A stretch of DNA of 59,691 bases from the NCBI GenBank assembly GCA_029560585.1, contig JAKQKQ010000216.1, forward strand, positions 1-59,691, read 5' to 3'. Shown piece after piece: positions 4,580 through 51,272 of this stretch. Within the stretch, counting starts at the first letter, position 1. Every line of letters starts with the position of its first letter. Under the pieces are notes generated by a model. The model was not told the origin of the DNA and searched no databases. It was given only the letters and a program-made list of their open reading frames with translations. Source of the stretch: Verrucomicrobiota bacterium. GTDB taxonomy: Bacteria; Verrucomicrobiota; Verrucomicrobiia; JADLBR01. The position numbers and the translations under genes were made by a program.

Positions 4580-4851
4580 GGGAGGGACGCCGGCCCCGGC
4601 GTCCGCGATTCACCGGCCGTGCGACTCGTGAGCCAATTCGGTCCGCGAGGCGAGCGTGTCTCAAGACCTCTGAGCCGAGCCGCCTGGCACAGGCGGCCTA
4701 CAAATTTTGTAGGGCATCTCTGTGAGATGCCGTGCATTGTCGCGCGCCGCACACCATTGGAAGTCCCCTCTATAGTCAGATGGCATTGATTGTTGGATGT
4801 TCCGTGTTAGGCGTTTGAGTTTTGAGACAGCTTCACGCCGCGGGCCCTCCC
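4580..4851 (+). repeat. Composite repeat, filled copy A (outer GGGAGGG...CCCTCCC element with inserted 183-bp element)
   Basis: The outer element starts GGGAGGGACGCCGG with its palindromic partner CCGGCGTCC and ends GGGCCCTCCC. Inside it lies a 183-bp insertion (4652-4834) bounded by GAGCGTGTCTCAAGAC and GTTTTGAGACAGCTTC. The insertion holds three abutting 17-nt hairpins at 4680-4696, 4697-4713 and 4714-4730. Beyond the outer end, to about 4930, is a further family segment with a GGCGTCTC-type hairpin. The rest of the 4552-5053 gap holds no recognisable gene. Confidence 0.85.
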
Positions 4852-6717: not shown

Positions 6718-6808
6718 GGCTAGCGGGGTACTCTTCTCTCATGGGGGCACAAAGGCGCGGCGCCTAGCAGCGCGTTTCAAAGACCCACACGACCGTCGGG
6801 TTGGCTAT

Positions 6809-6840
6809 GGGAGGGACGCCGTCCCCGGCGTCCGTGTCCC
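6809..6840 (+). repeat. Lone GGGAGGGACGCC/GGCGTCC palindrome
   Basis: GGGAGGGACGCC followed by CCGGCGTCC gives an 8-9 bp hairpin. It matches the left end of the composite repeats elsewhere in the window but lacks the GGGCCCTCCC right end. Confidence 0.75.
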
Positions 6841-7031
6841 ACCGGAAAACGAAAGGCACTAGAGGGTTCCCGGTCGAGTCGGCAAGATCGGCTCGCGTGT
6901 CTTGCTGCAGATAAAAACCGGAAACGTCCATACGGGACACGAGGGGCGCGGACTGGTCTGAAACAGGACGGGCGAGGTTTTTTTCCTCATCGATCCAGTT
7001 TCAAACCGGATCGGCGTTTGATTTTGGCACT

Positions 7032-7256
7032 AGCCCGGAATTTCACAGCCTTGCGGGCTGTGAAATTCCGGGCTCTGGGAAAACCGCGCCATGAGAGCCA
7101 CTTATTGGGAAAGGTCTCGCAAAGACTGGGATTCTTCGCGGTTGCAGAGTGTGTTTCGCGGATCGGTGGCCCCAGATCCTCCAAAATCGCGTCTTTCGGA
7201 GCGCGGTTTTCCTTTGAGCCTGCATGTTTCACGCGGAAGCGTGAAATATGCAGGCT
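7032..7256. repeat. Structured block: two long hairpins plus a nested 12-bp inverted repeat
   Basis: Hairpin 1 has a perfect 19-bp stem (7032-7050 with 7056-7074) and a 5-nt loop TTGCG. Hairpin 2 has an 18-bp stem with one mismatch (7217-7234 with 7239-7256) and a GGAA tetraloop. Between them GGAAAACCGCGC (7078-7089) is perfectly complementary to GCGCGGTTTTCC (7201-7212), enclosing about 110 bp. The block is more AT-rich than its surroundings and has no good coding frame. Confidence 0.8.
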
Positions 7257-7379
7257 AGGATGACAGATTTGGTTTAATCGCGTCCCACAAGCATGGCACG
7301 GCAGGTGTCGCCTCGTTCTCCCCAACGTTATCGACGGCGGGCGCGGTGCGCTGCTAGCCTCGCGGGCATTCCTGATAGT

Positions 7380-10847: not shown

Positions 10848-10879
10848 AAGAGCAGCGAGAGAGAGAGGGCCCGCGGCCT

Positions 10880-11151
10880 GAGCCTGTCTCAAGAGTCGCG
10901 TCGAGAGTTCGCAGCAGGCCGCCTGGCGCAAGATAGAGTGCAGGCAAGGCTCGTGGCGGGATCCTTCCTTTGGAGCGCGGTGGCAACGCCACCGCTTTGG
11001 AACGGCGCGAAGCGACGGCACCGCTTTGGCCTCGGCCGGGACGTCGGCTCCGCCGACCGCGGAAAGCGGCGGCGTCGCCGCCGCACTCCAAAAACTGGCG
11101 CATCGATCAAATTGCCATGCTTCCGCGATGATCGAGTTTTGAGACAGACTC
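10880..11151. repeat. 272-bp insertion with GAG..TGTCTCAA ends and a distinct interior
   Basis: The left end GAGCCTGTCTCAAGAG (10880-10895) and right end GTTTTGAGACAGACTC (about 11136-11151) are imperfect inverted repeats, matching the ends of the 183-184 bp insertions. It sits in the same outer context, but the interior lacks the three mini-hairpins and contains a family B repeat at 10969-11094. Confidence 0.65.
10969..11094. repeat. Family B repeat (TTTGGAGNGCGG ... CCGCACTCCAAA)
   Basis: Inverted ends TTTGGAGCGCGG and CCGCACTCCAAA flank paired GCCACCGCTTTGG and GGAAAGCGGCGGC blocks. All frames give low-complexity arginine-, alanine- and glycine-rich shadows, not proteins. Confidence 0.7.
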
Positions 11152-11217
11152 GCCTCTCGGGCCGGGTTGGCCCAGGCGCGGCGCGGCTGGTGAATCGCGG
11201 ACTGTCGATCGAACGCG

Positions 11218-14877: not shown

Positions 14878-15493
14878 GCCGGGGGTCCGTCACTGGGCAG
14901 AACCCATTGGCTTAAGTTGTTCCCTGCCATCGCGTGATTCGCAATGGCGGGCGCGGTGGGCGATTATCGGACGACTTGGGCAACGGTACTTCTTGGCGGC
15001 GCATGGCGTTCGCCTTGCCTTGCGGCGTCTCACGGAGACGCCCTGCAAGATGTTGGGCACGCCATCCGGGTATCCTGGGGAGGGCCCGCGGCCTGAGGCT
15101 GTCTCAAAACTCAAACGCCCAACACGGAACATCCAACAATCAATGCCCATCTGATGATAGAGGGGATTTCCAATGGTGTGCGGCGGGCGACAATGCACGG
15201 CATCTCACAGAGATGCCCTACAAAATTTGTAGGCCGCCTGTGCCAGGCGGGCGGTTCAGAGGTTTTCAGACACGCTCAGGCCGCGGGCCGGGTTGGCCCA
15301 GATGTGGCGCGGCTAGTGAATCGCGGACGCCGGGGCTGGCGTCCCTCCCGGCTGATGCGGGCGGCAAGTACGGTGCGGCAGCGGATTCGGTCTTTCCGCA
15401 CCGCGTGACAGCCGGGCCCCCGCACACGGAGATTTCACAATTTTTCCATGCTGGGTTCATCAGGGTTTCACAGGGCGGGGGCAGGGTGTGGCC
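14878..15493. other. Intergenic region occupied mainly by composite repeat copy C
   Basis: No gene is supported. A GGCGTCTC-ACG-GAGACGCC hairpin lies at 15024-15042, followed by the reverse-oriented composite repeat at 15078-15349. From 15350 to 15493 is the upstream region of the secreted-protein/creD operon, without a clear promoter. Confidence 0.6.
15078..15349 (-). repeat. Composite repeat, filled copy C (reverse orientation)
   Basis: It is the reverse complement of copies A and D: outer end GGGAGGGCCC at 15078 and palindromic end GCGGACGCC...GGCGTCCCTCCC at 15322-15349. The insertion is 15095-15277 (183 bp), bounded by GAGGCTGTCTCAAAAC and GTTTTCAGACACGCTC. The three abutting hairpins are at 15200-15216, 15217-15233 and 15234-15250. 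Confidence 0.85.
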
Positions 15494-26132: not shown

Positions 26133-26208
26133 TGGCGACCCTAACGGGATTCGAACCCGTGTTACCGCCGTGAAAGGGCGGTGTCCTAGGCCTCTAGACG
26201 ATAGGGTC
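26133..26208 (-). tRNA. tRNA-Glu (UUC)
   Basis: Minus-strand cloverleaf of 76 nt including encoded CCA (26135-26133). Acceptor stem GACCCTA pairs with TAGGGTC. The anticodon stem CCGCC/GGCGG encloses CTTTCAC with anticodon TTC. The T arm is CGGGTTCGAATCCCG and the D arm contains TCTAGAGGCC, as in other tRNA-Glu genes. A TTGCCT-N16-TATGTT promoter candidate lies about 55 nt upstream on the minus strand. Confidence 0.97.
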
Positions 26209-31360: not shown

Positions 31361-32026
31361 TCAGATCCCCTGCAGTTCGTGGCTCGCCTTGGGCAAGCGG
31401 ACGGACGGCGGGCCCTTATAGACGCACCCGGCTTGAGTGTTTTCGAGCACGAGGGCCCCGGCCCCGATAACGCACCCCCTGGCGACCGTGATTCCGTCCC
31501 TGATCGTGGCGTTTGCCCCGATGAAACAAAATGGCTCCACCCTGCTGTTTCCGCAGACCATGACGTTCGCGGCGATGAAGCAGTGATCCCCGATGATGCT
31601 ATGGTGTGAGATCAGGCTGCCGGATGCGATCACGACATTGCTGCCGATCTTGGCGAAAGGCTGGATGATACTACCCGCCTGGATATCGCAGTTATCGCCG
31701 ATGGTGAGATCGGGCCACGTGATGGCGCGAGAACTCACGTAGCTAATGAGCTTGTACCCTTTGGCTCTTGCCTGTTCATACTTCTCGGCCCTGACCGAGT
31801 TCACATTCACGTAGCTGATTGCGATCAGCATCCCGATTTCCGAGGGCGGAAATGCCGATTCGATTTTCTCGAACGCCACGACCGGCAACCCCAGATGGGT
31901 TGCGGCGGCGATATAGCGCCCGTCCACCGTGAATCCGACGACCTCGTAGGCCGAATCGTGCGTCAGATAGTAGTGGGATACGTCGGCGGTTGTGCCGGTC
32001 CCGAATATAACGACCTTCTGTTTCAT
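31361..32026 (-). CDS. NeuD-type left-handed beta-helix sugar acyltransferase (paralogue 1)
   Basis: 221 residues. A PglD/NeuD-like N-terminal Rossmann half starts KQKVVIFGTGTTADVSHYYL. A left-handed beta-helix of hexapeptide repeats follows from about residue 105 (TIGDNCDIQAGSIIQPFAKIG...) to the C-terminal loop. These enzymes acetylate or acylate a sugar amine or hydroxyl. It overlaps the PaaK-like gene by 4 bp (ATGA), which suggests that the ligase supplies its acyl donor. It is a close paralogue of the gene at 33499-34164, with the same length and start. Confidence 0.85.
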   Translation of the reverse strand: MKQKVVIFGTGTTADVSHYYLTHDSAYEVVGFTVDGRYIAAATHLGLPVVAFEKIESAFPPSEIGMLIAISYVNVNSVRAEKYEQARAKGYKLISYVSSRAITWPDLTIGDNCDIQAGSIIQPFAKIGSNVVIASGSLISHHSIIGDHCFIAANVMVCGNSRVEPFCFIGANATIRDGITVARGCVIGAGALVLENTQAGCVYKGPPSVRLPKASHELQGI

Positions 32027-33498: not shown

Positions 33499-34164
33499 CT
33501 AGATCCTTTGGAGCGCGTCGCTGGATCTTGGGAACAGCGTTGCCGGGTGCGCCCTATAGACACCCTTCTCCCGCGTGTCCTCCAGCACAACGGCGCCCGC
33601 TCCGATCACGCACCCGCTGGCGATCGTGATATTGTCCCTGATCTTGGCGCCGGCACCAATGAAGCAGAAGGGCTCGATGGTGACTTTGCCAGACACCATG
33701 ATCCCGCCCGACAAGAAGCAGTGGTCTTTTATGACGGTGTCGTGGCCAATCACGGTGCCAGGCCCGATGACAACATCGCTGCCGATCCGCGCGAAGGGCT
33801 GTATGATGCTGCCCTCGTGGATGCGGCTATTGTCACCGATCACCAGGCCTGGCCACGTGATCGCACGCGAGCTGACATAGGTGATGAGGCCATATCCCTT
33901 CGCCTTGGCCTGGGCGTATTTTTCCGCCCTCGCGCTGTTCACGCCCACGTAGCTGAGCGCGACCAGCATCTTGTAGCGCGACGACGGAAAAACGGATTCG
34001 ATTTCGTCGAACGCAACCACTGGCAGATCCCGGTGGGTCGCCCGATCGAGGTAGGGTCTGTCCACGGTGAATCCGCAAACCTCGTACGCCGAGTCGTTCG
34101 CCAGATAGAAATGCGAGCGGTCGGCCGTCTCGCCGGTGCCGAATACGATGACCTTCTGTTTCAT
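33499..34164 (-). CDS. NeuD-type left-handed beta-helix sugar acyltransferase (paralogue 2)
   Basis: 221 residues starting MKQKVIVFGTG, chosen over an upstream in-frame extension because it aligns with paralogue 1. N-terminal half as in NeuD/PglD, then hexapeptide repeats (VIGDNSRIHEGSIIQPFARIG...). Residues diverge mainly in the helix face and the last 25 positions. It lies 29 bp after the third acyltransferase gene and 126 bp before the PaaK-like ligase. Two paralogues in one locus suggest two different acylation positions or acyl groups. Confidence 0.85.
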   Translation of the reverse strand: MKQKVIVFGTGETADRSHFYLANDSAYEVCGFTVDRPYLDRATHRDLPVVAFDEIESVFPSSRYKMLVALSYVGVNSARAEKYAQAKAKGYGLITYVSSRAITWPGLVIGDNSRIHEGSIIQPFARIGSDVVIGPGTVIGHDTVIKDHCFLSGGIMVSGKVTIEPFCFIGAGAKIRDNITIASGCVIGAGAVVLEDTREKGVYRAHPATLFPRSSDALQRI

Positions 34165-42862: not shown

Positions 42863-43415
42863 AGAAAATATTCGGGGGTGGGGAGGCCTGGGGGGAACGA
42901 TCGGCGGGGGGAAGCGGCGCGGGGACGCATCACGCTCTAACAGCCCGTTAGAAAACGTCACCGATTGGCCATGACGGTGTGGGACGCCAGATTTCGACGG
43001 GAGGGACGCCGGCCCCGGCGTCCGCGATTCACCAGCCGCACGACATCTGGGCCAACCCGGCCCGCGAGGCGAGCGTGTCTCAAAACCTTTGAACCGAACC
43101 GCCTGGCACAGGCGGCCTACAAATTTTGTAGGGCATCTCTGTGAGATGCCGTGCAATGTCGCGTGCCGCACACCATTGGAAGTCCCCCCTAACATCAGAT
43201 GGGCATTGATTGTTGGATGTCCCGTGTTGGGCGTTTGAGTTGTGAGACAGCCTCGGGCCGGCGTGCCACCCCGGATTGGACCGGGGTGCCTGCCATGTTC
43301 TGGTTCATTTGAAGACGCCAGACTTGCTCTTTCCAAGGGCGGCGGGAGGTCCTAGCCTTGCGCTGGCGCCCTGGCGAGGGTCCGGGTCGGGGGCTGAGGC
43401 GCGGAGGTCTGGTCT
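42863..43415. other. Intergenic region with composite repeat copy D
   Basis: No gene is supported. 42863-42998 shows nothing recognisable. The composite repeat spans 42999-43260, followed by a GC-rich hairpin (GGCACCCCGG against CCGGGGTGCC near 43265-43290). A TAGCCT hexamer at about 43353 may be the -10 of the large propeller gene, whose ATG at 43416 has GGAGG 8 nt upstream. Confidence 0.55.
42999..43260 (+). repeat. Composite repeat, filled copy D (right outer end lost)
   Basis: It begins GGGAGGGACGCCGG. The insertion is 43071-43254 (184 bp), with GAGCGTGTCTCAAAAC and GTTGTGAGACAGCCTC ends. The three hairpins are at 43099-43115, 43116-43132 and 43133-43149. After the insertion the text reads GGGCCGGCG, so the CCCTCCC end has diverged. 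Confidence 0.85.
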
Positions 43416-46400
43416 ATGAAGCGCACGTTGCCCGCCCCCGGGTTTTTGTTGAGATGCACAGGGTGGCTTTCGTTGGTGTTCACGTGTGCCTTGGCGGGCG
43501 CAGGGGACTGGCCGACCTACCGGCATGACGCGGCGCGCAGCGGCATCACCGCGGAGGCGCTGAGGCCACCGCTGGTCGAGTGCTGGCGACTCGTGTCGCG
43601 GGTGGCGCCAGATCCTGCGTGGGAGACGCCGCGGGACGTGCCGGTGGAGGGCATCCTGGAACTTGGGCGCACGCGCTTCGATGACGCGCACCACGTCGCC
43701 GTGGCGGATGGGCGGGTCTATTTTGGGACCAGCGGGGATGGGCGCCTGTGCGCCCTTGATGTGGCCACGGGCAAGAAGGTGTGGACGCGGCACGCGGGCG
43801 GGCCGGTGCGGCTGGCGCCGTCGTTCTCGCAGGGCCGCGTGTACTTCGGGGCCGATGATGGGATCGTGCGGTGCCTCGACGCGGCCACGGGGAACGTCGC
43901 CTGGGAGCGGCGCGTGGGCCCGCGAGACGAGCGGCTGCTTGGCCACGGGAAGATGATTTCGCGTTGGCCGGTGCGCACCGGCGTCTTGGTCGATGGGGGC
44001 GTCGCGTACTTCGGGGCGGGGATATTTCCGGCCGAGGGCGTTTTCATGGAGGCGGTCGGGGCCGCCGATGGCCGGCCGGTGTGGCGCAATGATACCTGCG
44101 GGGAGGCGCCCGACAGCATCATCTCGCCCCAGGGTTATCTGCTCGCATCAAAAAGCCAGCTCTTCGCGCCGCTGGGGCGCGTGTCACCAGCCGGGTTTGA
44201 TCGCGAGACCGGCAAGTTCATCCAGGCCGCGTCCTTCGGCAAGACCATCGGCGGCGGCTCCGCGCTGATCGCAGGCGAACAGCTTTATACCGGGACAGAG
44301 GAGATCATGGCCTATCGGCCCGGCACGAAGAAAGAGAAGACGGCCTGGCTCGGGGGCCGCCAATTGGTGGTGCGGGGAGACATTTTCTATCTGGCGACCG
44401 ACAAGGCGATCGTGGCGGTGGACCGCAAGGGATATGCCGTGCCGAGCGTGAAACGGTTCACATTGCGTGAGCAGCTGAGGCAATTTGGCACCGACTTGCG
44501 CGCGGCGGTGGGCGCGGAGGCCAAGGCCGCGAAGGCGCTCGCGCTTGACCAGAGAGCGCTGGCGGCCATGGGGCGGGATGCCGTCGGCCGGGCGGAACTG
44601 GAAGAGAAAGTCGAAGAGGGCGCGCGGCAACTGGAGGACGCGCGACGGCAGCTCGGGCAACTGCGCGAGCGGCAGGGGGAAATGGATGAGACCTTTGAGC
44701 AGGCTGGCGAGGCGATGTCCGCCGCCCAACTCTGGGTGTTAGAGCGCACGTGCGCCGACGCGCTGATCCTCGCGGGCGAGACCCTCTTCGCCGGCGGCGA
44801 TGGGCGGGTCCTGGCGATCGACGCGGGCACGGGCAAGGTGCTGTGGGAGGGATCGGTGGAGGGCGTCGCCCGGGGGCTTGCCGTGGCTGATGGCAGGCTG
44901 TTCGTCAGCACGACGACCGGCGCGATCTACTGCTTCGGGCCGGAGGGTAGTAAAGCCTGTGGCGCTGTCGAGGACGCGGCTCCCAAGCCGTCGGCCGGGG
45001 GCGATGCATCGTGGGCCAAGACCTGTTCCGAGGCGGCGGATTTTGTGATTCGGGAGTCGGGTGTCACCCGGGGCTACGCGCTCGTGCTCGGTTGCGGGAC
45101 GGGCAGGCTTGCGGCGGAACTCGCGATGCGCACGGAACTGACGATATGCGCGGTGGACTCTGATCCCGCGAGGGTCGAGGCGGCGCGCGCGCTCCTAGAT
45201 GCGGAGGGCCTCCTCGGTTCGAGAATCTCAGTGGATTGCGTCGGGCACGGCGCTCTGCCTTTCTCGGATTTCTTCGCGAATCTCGTCGTCAGCGAGCGCC
45301 TGCTCGGTGGGGACGCGGCCGGCATTGACGCGACGGAAATCTCGCGCGTGCTGAAGCCCTGCGGCGGCGTCGTGATGTTCGGCCGACGTCCTGGTTCCGG
45401 GGGCGGTGGCGGGCTGCGGGCGCTGCTGCCGGCCGACAAGTTCCCTGGTGCGAAGGAATTGGCGGGCGGCAACTGGGTGTCTTTCGTGCGCGGATCGCTG
45501 CCGGGGGCCGGGGACTGGACTCACGCTTATGCGGATGCGGGCAACACCGCGGGCGGTGGCGACTCGGCGCTGCATTGCCCGATGGGGTTGCTGTGGTTCG
45601 GGCGACCCGGGCCACTGGAGATGATCAGCCGCCACCGCCGCGCGGCGGGTCCGCTGATGGCAAAGGGCGTGCTCCTCGTCCAGAGCGAGAACGCGGTCAC
45701 GGGATACGATCCGTACAACGGCCTGCGGCTCTGGCGCCACGAGATGCCAAAGGTCGTCCGGGATCTCGTCTCCCACGACTGCAGCAATCTCGCCTCCGAT
45801 GGGGAGACCTTTTTCGTGGCGCAAGATGCCGGGTGCTTCCGCCTTGATGCCCGCGACGGAAAGACGCTGGCGACCTTCCGGGTACCGGGCGACAAGGCCG
45901 AGCGGTGGGGGTACATTGCGGCGGAGGGCGGCCTGCTCTTTGGAAGCGCGACGAAGCAGGGCAGGACGTGCGATCGGATTTTTGCGATCGACCCCGCGAC
46001 CGGTAGAAATCTCTGGCAATACGAGGGTCCCGGGATTCCCCACCCATCGATTTCGGTGTCGGGCGGCCGCGTCTTCTTCGTTGAGGACAGGGCGGCGACG
46101 TCCGAGCAACGGCTCGCCGCGCTGCACGATCAACTGGAGGGGTTGAAACCCGCTGACGCGGAGAAGGCCATGAGGAAGGCCGCGGTGCGCTTTGCCGTGT
46201 GCATTGACGGCCGGAGTGGCCGCAAGCTGTGGGAGAGGCCCGTGGACCTGACGGGTGGCATCGGCGGACTATATTGGAGTTCGCTCGGGACGATGGCGGC
46301 ACGCGGGACGCTGGTGATATTCGGCGTCTATACCGACGGCCACTATTGGAAGGATTTCTTCGCGGGACAGTTCGATTCGCGGCGGATCGTGGGGCTGGAC

Positions 46401-48206
46401 GCGGCCGACGGGCGCACGCTCTGGGACAAGAGGGTGGGCTATCGGGTCCGGCCGCTGATCGTCGGCGACACGCTGCACGCCGAGCCATGGGCCTACGATC
46501 TCAGGACGGGCAAGCAGCGCGAACGCGTCAACCCCGTGACGGGGTTTGAAGAGCCGTGGCAGTACGCGCGCCCCGGACACCATTGCGGTCCGCCCGTTGC
46601 GGCGCAGAACGTGATGCTGTTCCGCTCGGGGCACGTCGGGTACTTCGACCTCGAACACGACATTGGGACGATGCACTTCGGCGGCCAGCGGATGGGCTGT
46701 TGGGTCAACTTCATCATGGGGGGTGGGCTGGCGATGATCCCCGAGGCCAGTTCCGGCTGCATGTGTCCATTCCCCAACGTGTGCACCGTTGTTTTCGCGC
46801 CGCGGGCGCAGGAGCGGGCGTGGGCCAAGATGAGTCTCGTGGGCGGCACGATGCCCGCCAAACACCTGGCCCTGAATCTCGGGGCGCCGGGGGACCGCAA
46901 AGCCGCCGACGGAACCCTCTGGCTGGCTTACCCGAGGCCGACGGGTTCGCTCGTGGTGCCATTCGCGACAGATGTTTCGACGTATCCCGGCGGCGGGTCC
47001 TTTCTCAAGGGCACGGATTTCACCAAGGTGGAAGGAACGGCCAATCCGTGGCTCTATGAGTCGGGCTATCGGGGCTTCAGGCGACTCGGTCTCCCGCTGT
47101 TGGCCCCGGGTGATGGCCGGGCCGCGTTCACGGTCCGCCTCCACTTTGCCGAGCTCGATGGCGCCGCGCCCGGCCAACGGGTGTTTGACATCCGGCTCCA
47201 GGGCAAAGTCGTTGCGCGGGCATTCGACCCGGTGGCCGAGGCCGGTGGGGCGGGGAAGGCCGTGATCAAGGAGTTTGCGGGCGTGGAGTCGGACCGGGAT
47301 CTCGAGATCGAATTCAGTGCCAAGGGCCGCAGCCCGGCGCCCGACAGCGCCCCATTGCTGCAGGCCATCGAGGCGCTGCGCGAGCGCGTGCTCGCCGTCG
47401 GCGTGATCGTGCCCGAGGTTTTGCTGAACCGGTCGAGGCCGACGGCGGAGGTGGAAGTCCGCGCGGCGAATCTAAAGGATGTTCCTTTCGGCGGGACGTT
47501 GGAGTTGCTCGCGCCAGAGGGTTTTCGCGTCGAGCCGTCGAAGATTCCCGTGCGGCTTGAGGCATCGGGCGGCAAGGCGGTCGTGAAGGCATCCATCTCC
47601 TGCCAGCAACTCGAGATGCCCGAGGTGAAGCGGGAACTCCTGGCCAGGCTGGTGGGCGCGGGGGGCGCCGTGGAGATGGAGGCGCGCAGCGACATCGAAT
47701 TTCTCGGGCGACGCGAGCGCACCATCCTCAGGGCGTGCGAGGACACGTACGCGACCGCGGGCACCCCGAACTCGGCCAAGGGCGGCACGGCGCCGACCCT
47801 GGTCGTCGATGGGGGCAACCTCACGACCGGTGACGACTCGCATAGCATCGCGTTTCTCAAGTTCCTGATCGACCTGCCCGGCACCCCGGTTTCCGCAATC
47901 CTGGTTTTATGCAACGCCGGCAACGAGTCCACGGACGGCGGGCAGATCCGCGTCGTGGAGGGCCACTGGAGCGAGCAGGGCCTGACCTACGAGAAACGGC
48001 CCACGCTCGGTCCGGTGGTTGGCAGGATCGGCAAGATCGCATCGCGCCAGGTGGTGCGAATTCCGCTGGATCTGAAGTTCACGGGAGCGAAGCAGGTGAG
48101 CCTGGCGATCGAGCCCGTGAACAATGATGGGGTAGACTACGTCTCGCGCGAGGGCAAGAAACCCGCAGAGCTGCTTGTCGAATACCTGCCGGCCAATAGC
48201 CCCTAG
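43416..48206 (+). CDS. Giant secreted beta-propeller protein with embedded methyltransferase-like, malectin-like and DNRLRE domains
   Basis: 1596 residues with a signal peptide (about 1-28). Residues 30-345 and 445-520 are PQQ/BamB-like blades (VTGKKVWTRH and TGKVLWEGS-type repeats), interrupted by a coiled coil (about 347-440). Residues about 535-675 form a class I SAM-methyltransferase-like Rossmann domain: LVLGCGTGRLA (motif I), CAVDSDPARVEAAR (post-I) and RVLKPCGGVVMFG (motif IV-VI region). A second propeller (about 690-1110) follows, then a malectin-like domain (about 1180-1320) and a C-terminal DNRLRE/CBM96-like domain (about 1440-1593). GGAGG lies 8 nt before the ATG. SAM is not expected outside the cytoplasm, so the embedded fold may be structural or bind another ligand. 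Confidence 0.8.
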   Translation: MKRTLPAPGFLLRCTGWLSLVFTCALAGAGDWPTYRHDAARSGITAEALRPPLVECWRLVSRVAPDPAWETPRDVPVEGILELGRTRFDDAHHVAVADGRVYFGTSGDGRLCALDVATGKKVWTRHAGGPVRLAPSFSQGRVYFGADDGIVRCLDAATGNVAWERRVGPRDERLLGHGKMISRWPVRTGVLVDGGVAYFGAGIFPAEGVFMEAVGAADGRPVWRNDTCGEAPDSIISPQGYLLASKSQLFAPLGRVSPAGFDRETGKFIQAASFGKTIGGGSALIAGEQLYTGTEEIMAYRPGTKKEKTAWLGGRQLVVRGDIFYLATDKAIVAVDRKGYAVPSVKRFTLREQLRQFGTDLRAAVGAEAKAAKALALDQRALAAMGRDAVGRAELEEKVEEGARQLEDARRQLGQLRERQGEMDETFEQAGEAMSAAQLWVLERTCADALILAGETLFAGGDGRVLAIDAGTGKVLWEGSVEGVARGLAVADGRLFVSTTTGAIYCFGPEGSKACGAVEDAAPKPSAGGDASWAKTCSEAADFVIRESGVTRGYALVLGCGTGRLAAELAMRTELTICAVDSDPARVEAARALLDAEGLLGSRISVDCVGHGALPFSDFFANLVVSERLLGGDAAGIDATEISRVLKPCGGVVMFGRRPGSGGGGGLRALLPADKFPGAKELAGGNWVSFVRGSLPGAGDWTHAYADAGNTAGGGDSALHCPMGLLWFGRPGPLEMISRHRRAAGPLMAKGVLLVQSENAVTGYDPYNGLRLWRHEMPKVVRDLVSHDCSNLASDGETFFVAQDAGCFRLDARDGKTLATFRVPGDKAERWGYIAAEGGLLFGSATKQGRTCDRIFAIDPATGRNLWQYEGPGIPHPSISVSGGRVFFVEDRAATSEQRLAALHDQLEGLKPADAEKAMRKAAVRFAVCIDGRSGRKLWERPVDLTGGIGGLYWSSLGTMAARGTLVIFGVYTDGHYWKDFFAGQFDSRRIVGLDAADGRTLWDKRVGYRVRPLIVGDTLHAEPWAYDLRTGKQRERVNPVTGFEEPWQYARPGHHCGPPVAAQNVMLFRSGHVGYFDLEHDIGTMHFGGQRMGCWVNFIMGGGLAMIPEASSGCMCPFPNVCTVVFAPRAQERAWAKMSLVGGTMPAKHLALNLGAPGDRKAADGTLWLAYPRPTGSLVVPFATDVSTYPGGGSFLKGTDFTKVEGTANPWLYESGYRGFRRLGLPLLAPGDGRAAFTVRLHFAELDGAAPGQRVFDIRLQGKVVARAFDPVAEAGGAGKAVIKEFAGVESDRDLEIEFSAKGRSPAPDSAPLLQAIEALRERVLAVGVIVPEVLLNRSRPTAEVEVRAANLKDVPFGGTLELLAPEGFRVEPSKIPVRLEASGGKAVVKASISCQQLEMPEVKRELLARLVGAGGAVEMEARSDIEFLGRRERTILRACEDTYATAGTPNSAKGGTAPTLVVDGGNLTTGDDSHSIAFLKFLIDLPGTPVSAILVLCNAGNESTDGGQIRVVEGHWSEQGLTYEKRPTLGPVVGRIGKIASRQVVRIPLDLKFTGAKQVSLAIEPVNNDGVDYVSREGKKPAELLVEYLPANSP

Positions 48207-48265: not shown

Positions 48266-48538
48266 GGGAGGGCCCGCGGCCTGAGGCTGTCTCAAAACTC
48301 AAACGCCCAACATGGAACACCCAACAATCAATGCCCATCTGATGATAGAGGGGACTTCCAATGGTGTGCGGCGGGCGACAATGCACGGCATCTCGCAGAG
48401 ATGCCCTACAAAATTTGTAGGCCGCCTGTGCCAGGCGGCTCGGCTCAGAGGTTTTGAGACACGCTCGCCTCGCGGGCCGGGTTGGCCCAGGCGTTGCGCG
48501 GCTGGTGAATCGCGGACGCCGGGGACGGCGTCCCTCCC
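48266..48538 (-). repeat. Composite repeat, filled copy E (reverse orientation)
   Basis: Outer ends are GGGAGGGCCC (48266) and GGCGTCCCTCCC (48538). The insertion is 48283-48466 (184 bp), bounded by GAGGCTGTCTCAAAAC and GTTTTGAGACACGCTC. Hairpins are at 48388-48404, 48405-48421 and 48422-48438. It is the best-preserved copy. Confidence 0.87.
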
Positions 48539-48693
48539 AATTGATACTGAGACGCCAGCGTGGATGTGATGGTGGCATTTTGAGACAGGCTGGCCTCGGC
48601 GTCCGTGCCGCAGCCCCGCTTCCGGCCCGGGCATCCGGATAATTGACAGCCGCATGGCGGCCGGGATAAAAAGACAATCAGCATTGATATTAT

Positions 48694-48700
48694 AGGAAGG
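48694..48700 (+). promoter_or_regulatory. Shine-Dalgarno AGGAAGG deciding the start at 48708
   Basis: AGGAAGG ends 7 nt before the ATG at 48708 and only 4 nt before the GTG at 48705, so the ATG is preferred. Confidence 0.6.
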
Positions 48701-48707
48701 TCGCGTG

Positions 48708-51020
48708 ATGCGAAAGGGACTGCTGGGTCTGGTGGTGCTGGGATGGTTCGCGGCGTCCGTCGCGATGGCGGACGGGGGGGCGACGGGAGCGGGCGTGCTG
48801 CCCGAAGGGAAGGCGCCGCCGCCGCTGGCGGTCCCGCATTTTCCCGATCGGCTGCACGCGTTTGTCTGGCGTAATTGGCCGGTGGTCGACGCCGCGAAGA
48901 TGGCGGAGGTGGTGGGCGGCACGGCCGAGGACATCCGGGCGATCGGCGCTTCGATGGGCCTGCCGCCGCAGGGGGCGATACTGCCGGAATGGCGGACGCG
49001 GGGATACATCACGCTGCTGCGCCGCAACTGGCACCTGTTGCCCTACGATCAGATGCTCCCGCTGCTCGGCATGACCGGGGAGCAACTGGCGTACTCGTTG
49101 CGCGAGGATGATTTTCTATTTCACAAGTTTGGCAACCTGAAGCCGAAGTGCGAGCCGTTGCGATATGCGGCGCCGGCTGATGCGGCGAAGCGGCGCGCGG
49201 AGGCGATCAGGGCGTTCGTGACGGAGAATTTTCCCGACTGGGCGGACGGCTCGGAGGAACCGCGATTTCATTTTATCGGTGAACTGAGCCGCGCGGGGGG
49301 TATGACGGCGGCGGTGGCGCGGGCCGATTCGGGCCGCTTTCGCCTCAGGTATATATATTCGTATTTCGCATCGTATGGCGACCCGCTGATGAACCCGGCG
49401 CTCGATCCCTATCCGGACGGGCTGCTGGAGCGGTTGGCAGCGGCCGGCGTGAATGGGATCTGGTTGCACACGGTGCTTCGGACGCTCGCGCCGAGCCCGA
49501 TGTTTCCCGAGTTTGGCGAGGGCCACGAGCGGCGGCTGGAGACGCTGCGCGATCTGGTAAAGCGCGCCGGCCGATATGGGATACGCGTGCTCTTGTACAT
49601 GAATGAGCCGCGGGCGATGCCGGAGTCGTTTTTTGCGAAGCCGGGGCGGGCCGATCTCATGGGCGTGAGGGAGGGGGAGCACGTGACGATGTGCACGTCG
49701 CGGCCCGAGGTGAGGCGATGGCTCTCCGATTCGTTGGCGCACGTTTTTCGCGAGGTCCCGGAGCTGGGCGGGGTGTTCACAATCACCGCGTCCGAGAACC
49801 TCACGAGTTGCGCATCCCACCACAAGCAGGCGGGCTGCCCGCGCTGCAAGGATCGCGCCCCCGGCGAGATCATTGCGGAGGTCAATGCGACCATCGGGGA
49901 GGGCGTTCATCGGTCCGCGCCCGACGCGGACGTGATCGCGTGGGACTGGGGGTGGCGCGATGACTGGGCCGCCGACGCGATCGCCCGCCTGCCGAAATCC
50001 ATCTGGTTGCAGTCCGTGAGCGAGAAGTCGCTCCCGATCAACCGCGGTGGCGTGGCCAGCGAGGTGGGAGAGTACTCCATCTCCTCGGTGGGCCCCGGCC
50101 CTCGCGCAACGAAGCACTGGGCGATCGCGCGCGAGGCGGGCCTGAGGACGGTCGCGAAAGTGCAGTTGAACAACACGTGGGAGATATCGTCGATACCGTA
50201 CCTGCCGGTGCTCGATCTCGTGGCGGAGCATTGCGCGAATCTGGCGGGCAGCGGCGTGAACGGGATGATGCTGAGCTGGAGCCTGGGCGGCTATCCTTCG
50301 CCCAACCTGGAGGTCGCGCGGCAGTTCGCCGCGGACACCACCCCGACGAAAGACGATGCCCTCGACCGCGTGGCGCGCGAGCGGTTTGGTCCAGAGGGCG
50401 CGCCGCATGCGCGGCGGGCGTGGTCCGCGTTCTCCTCGGCATTCCGGGAGTATCCGTTCCACGTCAGCGTCGTATACCTGTGCCCGGCGCAGATGGGCCC
50501 GGCGAACCTGCTCTATGGCACGCCAACGGGATACACGGCCACCATGACGGGCATCCCGTACGACGATCTGAAGCGCTGGCGCGGGCCGTATCCCACCGAC
50601 GTGTTTGAGGCACAGTTTGCGAAGGTCGCCGATGGATGGCGCAAGGGCCTGCCGGAATTGGAGCGCGCGGCCGGTGCGGCGCCGCCATCGAAGAAAGCGG
50701 AAGCCGCGACCGAGATGCGATTTGCCAGGGCCGCCGGCCTGCATTTCGCCAGTGTCGCGAATCAAGTGCGCTTCATCGCGGCGCGCGACCGGATCCTGGA
50801 TCAGAAGAATCCCCCGCCGCCCGAGGAGCGCTCGCGGCTCATCGCCGAAACCCGCGCCATCGCCCGGGACGAAATCCGGTTGGCGCGCGACATATTTCCC
50901 TTGGCGCGGCAGGATTCGCGCATCGGCTTCGAGGCCGCCAATCACTACTTCTATCTTCCGGTCGATCTCGTGGAGAAGGCGATCGGCTGCCAGTACATCG
51001 CCGAGCAGGCGTGGAAGTAG
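48708..51020 (+). CDS. Secreted TIM-barrel glycoside hydrolase-like protein (family unassigned)
   Basis: 770 residues with a signal peptide (MRKGLLGLVVLGWFAASVAMA). Residues about 190-560 read as a TIM barrel: LLERLAAAGVNGIWLHTVL, YGIRVLLYMNEPRAMP, GGVFTITASENLTSC, IAWDWGWRDDW and GMMLSWSLGGYPSPN are successive strand ends rich in aromatic and acidic residues. The pattern recalls clan-A hydrolases such as GH20 or GH123, but I could not identify a known catalytic pair. The N-terminal 150 residues and helical C-terminus (about 600-770) are unrecognised. It follows the giant propeller gene on the same strand. Probable substrate is a host- or algal-derived glycan. Confidence 0.65.
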   Translation: MRKGLLGLVVLGWFAASVAMADGGATGAGVLPEGKAPPPLAVPHFPDRLHAFVWRNWPVVDAAKMAEVVGGTAEDIRAIGASMGLPPQGAILPEWRTRGYITLLRRNWHLLPYDQMLPLLGMTGEQLAYSLREDDFLFHKFGNLKPKCEPLRYAAPADAAKRRAEAIRAFVTENFPDWADGSEEPRFHFIGELSRAGGMTAAVARADSGRFRLRYIYSYFASYGDPLMNPALDPYPDGLLERLAAAGVNGIWLHTVLRTLAPSPMFPEFGEGHERRLETLRDLVKRAGRYGIRVLLYMNEPRAMPESFFAKPGRADLMGVREGEHVTMCTSRPEVRRWLSDSLAHVFREVPELGGVFTITASENLTSCASHHKQAGCPRCKDRAPGEIIAEVNATIGEGVHRSAPDADVIAWDWGWRDDWAADAIARLPKSIWLQSVSEKSLPINRGGVASEVGEYSISSVGPGPRATKHWAIAREAGLRTVAKVQLNNTWEISSIPYLPVLDLVAEHCANLAGSGVNGMMLSWSLGGYPSPNLEVARQFAADTTPTKDDALDRVARERFGPEGAPHARRAWSAFSSAFREYPFHVSVVYLCPAQMGPANLLYGTPTGYTATMTGIPYDDLKRWRGPYPTDVFEAQFAKVADGWRKGLPELERAAGAAPPSKKAEAATEMRFARAAGLHFASVANQVRFIAARDRILDQKNPPPPEERSRLIAETRAIARDEIRLARDIFPLARQDSRIGFEAANHYFYLPVDLVEKAIGCQYIAEQAWK

Positions 51021-51187
51021 CCGACGGCGTTTCAGACGCCGATGCGATGGGGCGCGGGTGGAGGACGATCGCGTGAGGTGATTGGCGCGTTGGGCCTGAC
51101 GATCTGGGAAAGATGCTGGCGCGTTCGGCTATGACCCATTGAAGAAGATCATCGGTCGCCCATAACGGCATCCGTGACGTTTCCGCC

Positions 51188-51272
51188 GGGAGGGACGCCG
51201 GCCCCGGCGTCCGCGATTCACCAGCCGCGCGATACTTGGGCCAACCCGGCCCGCGAGGCCGCGGGCCCTCCC
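51188..51272 (+). repeat. Empty outer element (pre-insertion site)
   Basis: It begins GGGAGGGACGCCGG and continues through GCGATTCACCAGCC and GGGCCAACCCGGCCC to GCGAGGC|CGCGGGCCCTCCC with no insertion. Aligning the filled copies places the insertion at the bar, flanked in filled copies by GAGGC on the left and AGGC on the right, compatible with a 4-bp target duplication. Confidence 0.82.

Follow-up and report, generated by a model that had tools for sequence, protein, structure and literature searches.

The window, by which we mean the whole 59,691-nt stretch of Verrucomicrobiota DNA analyzed here (contig JAKQKQ010000216.1), contains four copies of a composite repeat of ~273 bp. Each carries, within an inner unit bounded by TIRs, a pair of short tagged palindromes that we designate REP-a and REP-b. 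The features are listed below.

4580 to 4851, plus strand: composite copy A, with outer arms GGGAGGG...CCCTCCC, inner unit and REP pair; intergenic
4652 to 4667, plus strand: left TIR of the inner unit, GAG CG TGTCTCAAGAC
4679 to 4701, minus strand: REP-a of copy A, GTAG GCCGCCTG TGC CAGGCGGC; 23 nt, 8-bp stem, 3-nt loop
4702 to 4708, no strand: spacer AAATTTT between the facing GTAG tags; 7 nt, loop and upper stem of the middle hairpin
4709 to 4731, plus strand: REP-b of copy A, GTAG GGCATCTC TGT GAGATGCC; 23 nt
4819 to 4834, plus strand: right TIR of the inner unit, GTTTTGAGACA GC TTC
10866 to 11204, no strand: related TIR-bounded element with the same outer arms and a different core, no intact REP pair; a paralogue lies in the L067 flank
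15078 to 15349, minus strand: composite copy B, REP pair at 15199-15251
42999 to 43271, plus strand: composite copy C, REP pair at 43098-43150
48266 to 48538, minus strand: composite copy D, REP pair at 48387-48439
51188 to 51272, plus strand: empty outer copy without the inner unit, 85 bp

The original prediction for this DNA described the core as three abutting 17-nt hairpins, each with a 7-bp stem and a 3-nt loop. Its sequences and coordinates are correct: the window has triples of abutting perfect 7-bp/3-nt hairpins beginning at positions 4680, 15200, 43099 and 48388, of which the second and fourth are on the minus strand, and has no others. No such triple arose in 60 Markov simulations. 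Folded as single-stranded DNA, the 53-nt core reaches -20.1 kcal/mol (z -7.6) in this three-hairpin form, and the middle 17-mer, searched with up to two mismatches, is found in the window only at the four triple sites. As an anatomy, however, the three equal hairpins do not hold. The outer stems are really 8 bp (copies B and C have a mismatch in the basal pair of the first), and a hairpin together with its tag makes a natural unit of 23 nt. The core consists of two GTAG-tagged REPs placed tail to tail, parsed over positions 4679-4731 as 23 + 7 + 23 nt: the reverse complement of GTAG-GCCGCCTG-TGC-CAGGCGGC, the spacer AAATTTT, and GTAG-GGCATCTC-TGT-GAGATGCC. Each REP is a palindrome in the 20-40 nt range and has a terminal GTAG-type tag; where the two tags face each other across the spacer, the middle hairpin arises as a by-product.

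This parse is supported by how the REPs are distributed in the genome. Exact matches number 108 for the REP-b type and 80 for REP-a, with zero in the controls; like the other genome copy counts given here, these figures come from searches by pattern and by DNA similarity and should be read as minimum values. The same REPs also pair outside the standard composite (L203, L210, L212, L221, L222, L224, L226-L230, L235 and L239), sometimes with GTGG tags. Hence the hairpins are not private to the insertions. The free tail-to-tail pairs sit in unrelated flanks, and their spacers vary (AAATTTT, AAGACTT, AATACTT, AAAAGCT and AATAATACTT). The family is therefore present in high copy and dispersed, with two inverted REPs recurring as a unit in the manner of REPINs or REP dimers. 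It is also mainly extragenic where position was scored, i.e. in the window, whose four copies are intergenic by ORF layout.

Other REP-like repeats occur in this genome and in a relative. A second type of REP-pair element holds the same two REPs within other short inverted arms, GAAACTTGACGCCCGCT ... AAACGCGTGCGAAGTTTC (L224, L226-L230, L235 and L239), and one diverged copy of it occurs in the sister species G001 (L093). Another REP type, GTAGGAGCNNGCTTGCNNGCGAT, which we take to resemble the Pseudomonas GTAG-1 kind, lies in the same genome at L102:3103 and 3153 and in the flanks in L050, L087 and L221. In G001, L274 (about 6800-7300) and L093 carry a different GTAG-tagged hairpin repeat, GTAGCCGAACGCGT(G/A)AGCGTTTGGC.

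The original prediction also held that substitutions are rare and fall in the loops, which would suggest selection on the stems. The first point holds genome-wide, and the second is supported by substitution rates and covariation. Among 40 alignable composite copies, substitutions per site were 1.9% in the stems (24/1279) and 0.9% in the tags (3/320), against 8.3% in the loops (20/240) and 7.4% in the rest of the element (464/6275). The difference between stems and loops is pronounced (Fisher p = 2e-6) and that between loops and the rest is not (p = 0.5), although the copies are related by descent, so that independence is overstated and the p-values serve only for orientation. Overall, the rate of change in the stems and tags of the composite is about four times lower than in its loops and remaining sequence. 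Moreover, 12 of the 24 stem changes make up six compensated A-T to G-C pairs, and one compensated change of this kind, in REP-b, is common to six copies. The covariance analysis over genomic copies that had been proposed as a check points the same way. In 36 distinct monomers, six of the eight stem pairs vary on both sides, with a covariation score of 0.598; shuffles gave 0.179 and slid partners no more than 0.145. Of the 36 rows, 12 come from a hairpin-based search and are biased towards pairing. In the other 24 rows, picked by a pattern blind to pairing, 18 monomers were fully paired and six had one mismatch. The stems are thus maintained by compensatory changes, in addition to their low substitution rates.

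Enzymes that could act on such a substrate are encoded in the same genome. Using as query a protein from a REP-flanked RAYT of another genome, the only search that found them, we identified two intact RAYT ORFs, C287:31610-32035 and C223:32603-33028. Both have REPs of the same family within ~120 bp on their flanks; at C223 these are a GCAG-tagged REP-a upstream and a REP-b downstream. The two proteins match the NCBIfam model for REP-associated tyrosine transposases (NF047646) at 63.7 and 70.5 bits (E 1e-17 to 1e-19), both under the curated cut-off of 80 bits. The H-x-H motif of HUH enzymes, the WQ and the catalytic tyrosine of the Y...NP motif are invariant in the RAYTs, and there is a weak match to the solved TnpA-REP structure 4er8 (E 0.0015). 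The Pfam Y1_Tnp model misses both cognate genes; its six matches in this genome were considered as cognate enzymes and rejected, as they are not flanked by the REP-a/REP-b family. Y1-type transposase frames of this genome occur at L098-L101 and L103, four of them of 328-366 aa, without flanking GTAG hairpins of the family. None of the composite copies was seen adjoining a RAYT.

The association of RAYT and REP extends to other genomes. A scan of named genomes with the REP-b pattern gave matches in Spartobacteria, Chthoniobacterales, Phycisphaerae and a MAG labelled Proteobacteria (JALHNO), where the pattern is present in great numbers and in BIME-like arrays. The pairing of REPs with a RAYT recurs in Spartobacteria, Phycisphaerae and this MAG. 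The RAYT of this MAG (L201) lies between REP arrays, and its protein retrieved REP-adjacent RAYTs in L191, L105 and L161, of which L105 and L161 had originally been fetched by the REP pattern alone. A RAYT gene flanked by its own REP family, i.e. a REPtron, is therefore found at C287 and C223 in the genome under study and at these four loci elsewhere; a further candidate, L198, has no convincing RAYT ORF and was left out of the count. Other RAYTs of the wider clade have their own flanking GTAG hairpins of the same build and with different stems, as expected if RAYT/REP pairs co-evolve. In G001, which is 94% complete, such that absence is uncertain, we found neither a RAYT of this clade nor an exact REP-b, while it retains many outer repeats and a single REP pair, which has diverged (L093).

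We consider it very probable that the core is a GTAG REP dimer of the REPIN/BIME type, the present or past folded single-stranded substrate of a cognate RAYT that the genome encodes twice, and that one such pair became the core of a TIR-bounded, non-autonomous element. Among the roles originally offered for the hairpins, a single-stranded recognition site for a transposase is the best supported, since the REP family flanks a specific RAYT clade both here and in several other genomes. The REP pair would fold where its DNA is single-stranded, as on the lagging strand; the RAYT (TnpA-REP, an HUH nuclease) may then bind the tag together with the hairpin and nick close by, so that the unit is copied or moved. 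By analogy with characterized enzymes, the C287/C223 RAYT would be expected to bind and cut these REPs. The TnpA-REP of Stenotrophomonas maltophilia acts on a single-stranded 23-nt REP with GTAG, an 8-bp perfect stem and a 3-nt loop; mismatches in the stem or changes in GTAG impair cleavage, and the tag is implicated in the choice of cleavage site (PMC8266576). The pattern of conservation in stems and tags described above fits this biochemistry.

The element that carries the REP pair in the window has two further layers. The pair lies inside an inner unit of ~184 bp with the TIRs TGTCTCAAAAC...GTTTTGAGACA (bounds GAGCGTGTCTCAAAAC...GTTTTGAGACAGCCTC), which in turn lies inside an outer palindromic repeat with arms GGGAGGGACGCC...GGCCCGCGAGGC and AGGCCGCGGGCCCTCCC. 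What had been taken for an array shared by all four insertions belongs to composites of which DNA and pattern searches recovered ~74 whole or partial copies genome-wide. Several of these are at contig ends, as expected where a repeat broke the assembly. The composite is short and non-coding, has TIRs and many copies, as in MITEs, and folds as a whole better than shuffles (z -4.1). Once a REP pair had become the core of the inner unit within the outer repeat, amplification of the element would have produced the ~74 copies.

Several observations concern the neighborhood of these repeats. The intergenic repeats of this genome are heavily nested; for example, a short recurrent unit ending ...GATGGTCTGGCGTTTTGAGACAGGCTC, with a TGTCTCAAAAC end and without a REP core, occurs at L202, L204, L209, L214, L216 and L218 and at 48577 in the window. 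Composite D and the empty outer repeat bracket the gene 48705-51020 (48266-51272), and in G001 the ~3.3 kb between the flanking orthologous stretches shrinks to 603 bp, without this gene or either repeat. The G001 stretches beside the orthologue of gene 43416-48206 have no composite at the places of C and D, which, with synteny broken, is weak evidence on insertion versus loss. A 300-nt direct repeat of 69% identity, 31577-31876 and 33715-34014, is probably paralogous coding sequence.

The composite was most likely amplified by a transposase that reads the TIRs. One form of this idea, to which we give about an even chance, is that the REP pair is a passenger: the composite would have been amplified by a DDE-type transposase that recognizes the TGTCTCAAAAC ends, and the REPs would persist by chance or because gene conversion by free copies renews them. 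The proposal bears on how the carrier was amplified and is compatible with a REP dimer as the core. It accords with the inverted ends of ~14/16 bp and with the occurrence of the inner unit in both orientations relative to the outer arms. The terminal CG/GC dinucleotides stay with the unit in either orientation, which speaks against simple homologous inversion between the TIRs as the origin of the two orientations. The empty outer copy at 51188-51272 fits as well. Set against it, there is a possible 2-bp GC duplication of the kind left at target sites. On the other hand, the stems are conserved well beyond their surroundings, and among the fetched TIR sites lacking the core we found no IS, autonomous element or transposase with TGTCTCAAAAC ends.

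The excess conservation of the stems raises a different reading, that the composite, TIRs and REP pair together, is the unit moved by the RAYT, with the pair as internal recognition site, so that copies with broken stems cannot propagate. The roughly fourfold lower rate of change in stems and tags favors it, as do TIR-bounded elements of three sizes (~106, ~173 and ~228 bp) that differ in stuffing and all contain the pair, and several truncated copies that stop 10-30 bp beyond REP-b. However, DDE-type TIRs and nested arms would be superfluous for a RAYT element, a fourth size class of 260-270 bp, including the element at 10866-11204, lacks an intact pair, and free REP pairs have spread with no TIRs. 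The same conservation would also result if the REPs of the composite underwent gene conversion by free ones. We therefore regard this reading as unlikely. We hold it similarly improbable that one mobile unit carries sites for two unrelated types of transposase, an HUH-type RAYT and a TIR-reading enzyme, with selection on the stems reflecting RAYT-dependent spread of the whole composite.

Selection on the array as RNA, as a stabilizer of mRNA 3' ends, a terminator or an attenuator, is quite unlikely. The intergenic position of the four window copies and the strong folding would suit such a role, and REPs are plausibly transcribed (PMC3733652). Nevertheless, the ORFs around the copies may be convergent, divergent or co-directed, the copies themselves occur in either orientation, and the GTAG tags, which matter to a RAYT and less to RNA folding, are the most conserved part. 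An Rfam scan of the window at gathering score matched no family at the array, its only hit being a tRNA at 26136-26208. Finally, three independent 17-nt hairpins serving as a double-stranded protein-binding array, as the perfect tandem symmetry of each of the four window copies might suggest, are disfavored to the point of near dismissal: the two outer hairpins are also found apart from each other or with different partners, and the middle one is never seen alone and has a variable spacer in free pairs.

A GTAG REP dimer, our preferred explanation of the core, has well-described relatives. The GTAG superfamily, with its tail-to-tail (TT) dimers, was described by Di Nocera et al. 2013 (PMC3733652), who also reported GTAG REPs in the Verrucomicrobia, in Opitutus terrae, with GTGG tags dominating one family. 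The present REPs share with that superfamily a GTAG, sometimes GTGG, tag at one end, a short perfect stem with a short loop, and intergenic monomers and inverted dimers, the likeness to its 24 published families being one of description and not of consensus stem or loop. Most of those families favor head-to-head dimers, whereas tail-to-tail dimers dominate here. Similar in build is the Group 3 REPtron Sm of S. maltophilia (PMC8266576), in which a small HUH/Y1 TnpA-REP is flanked by 23-nt REPs of GTAG, an 8-bp perfect palindrome and a 3-nt loop. That system belongs to another organism, the likeness does not reach the stem sequence, and ours is a case made from sequence. As in REPINs (Bertels and Rainey 2011, PMC3116915), two inverted REPs form the repeated unit, with a link to a RAYT and compensatory changes; unlike in REPINs, the two halves, though related, differ from each other, and a TIR-bounded element encloses many of the pairs.

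The literature already describes GTAG REP dimers, REPINs and REPtrons (PMC3733652, PMC3116915, PMC8266576, PMC6006769). The nesting of a REP pair in a MITE-like element is unusual and has precedents in REP dimers inside larger palindromes. For example, in A. variabilis GTAG-15 and H. neapolitanus CGTC-1 a conserved palindromic repeat regularly hosts the REP dimers (PMC3733652), but here there are two nested layers, both relative orientations, and an empty outer copy in the same window. Like bacterial MITEs, the composite is short, non-coding, TIR-bearing and dispersed in intergenic spacers; unlike them, it has a REP pair as its core, and no parental IS was identified.

What emerges is a clear REP/RAYT system from an uncultured lineage, in which a single unit pairs two REPs of different sequence. 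With several RAYT genes found alongside matching REPs in different genomes, the co-evolution of RAYT and REP can be tested directly. In the nested composite, the constraint on the REPs can be measured against neighboring sequence of the same age, so that the carriage of REPs by other mobile elements becomes testable as well.
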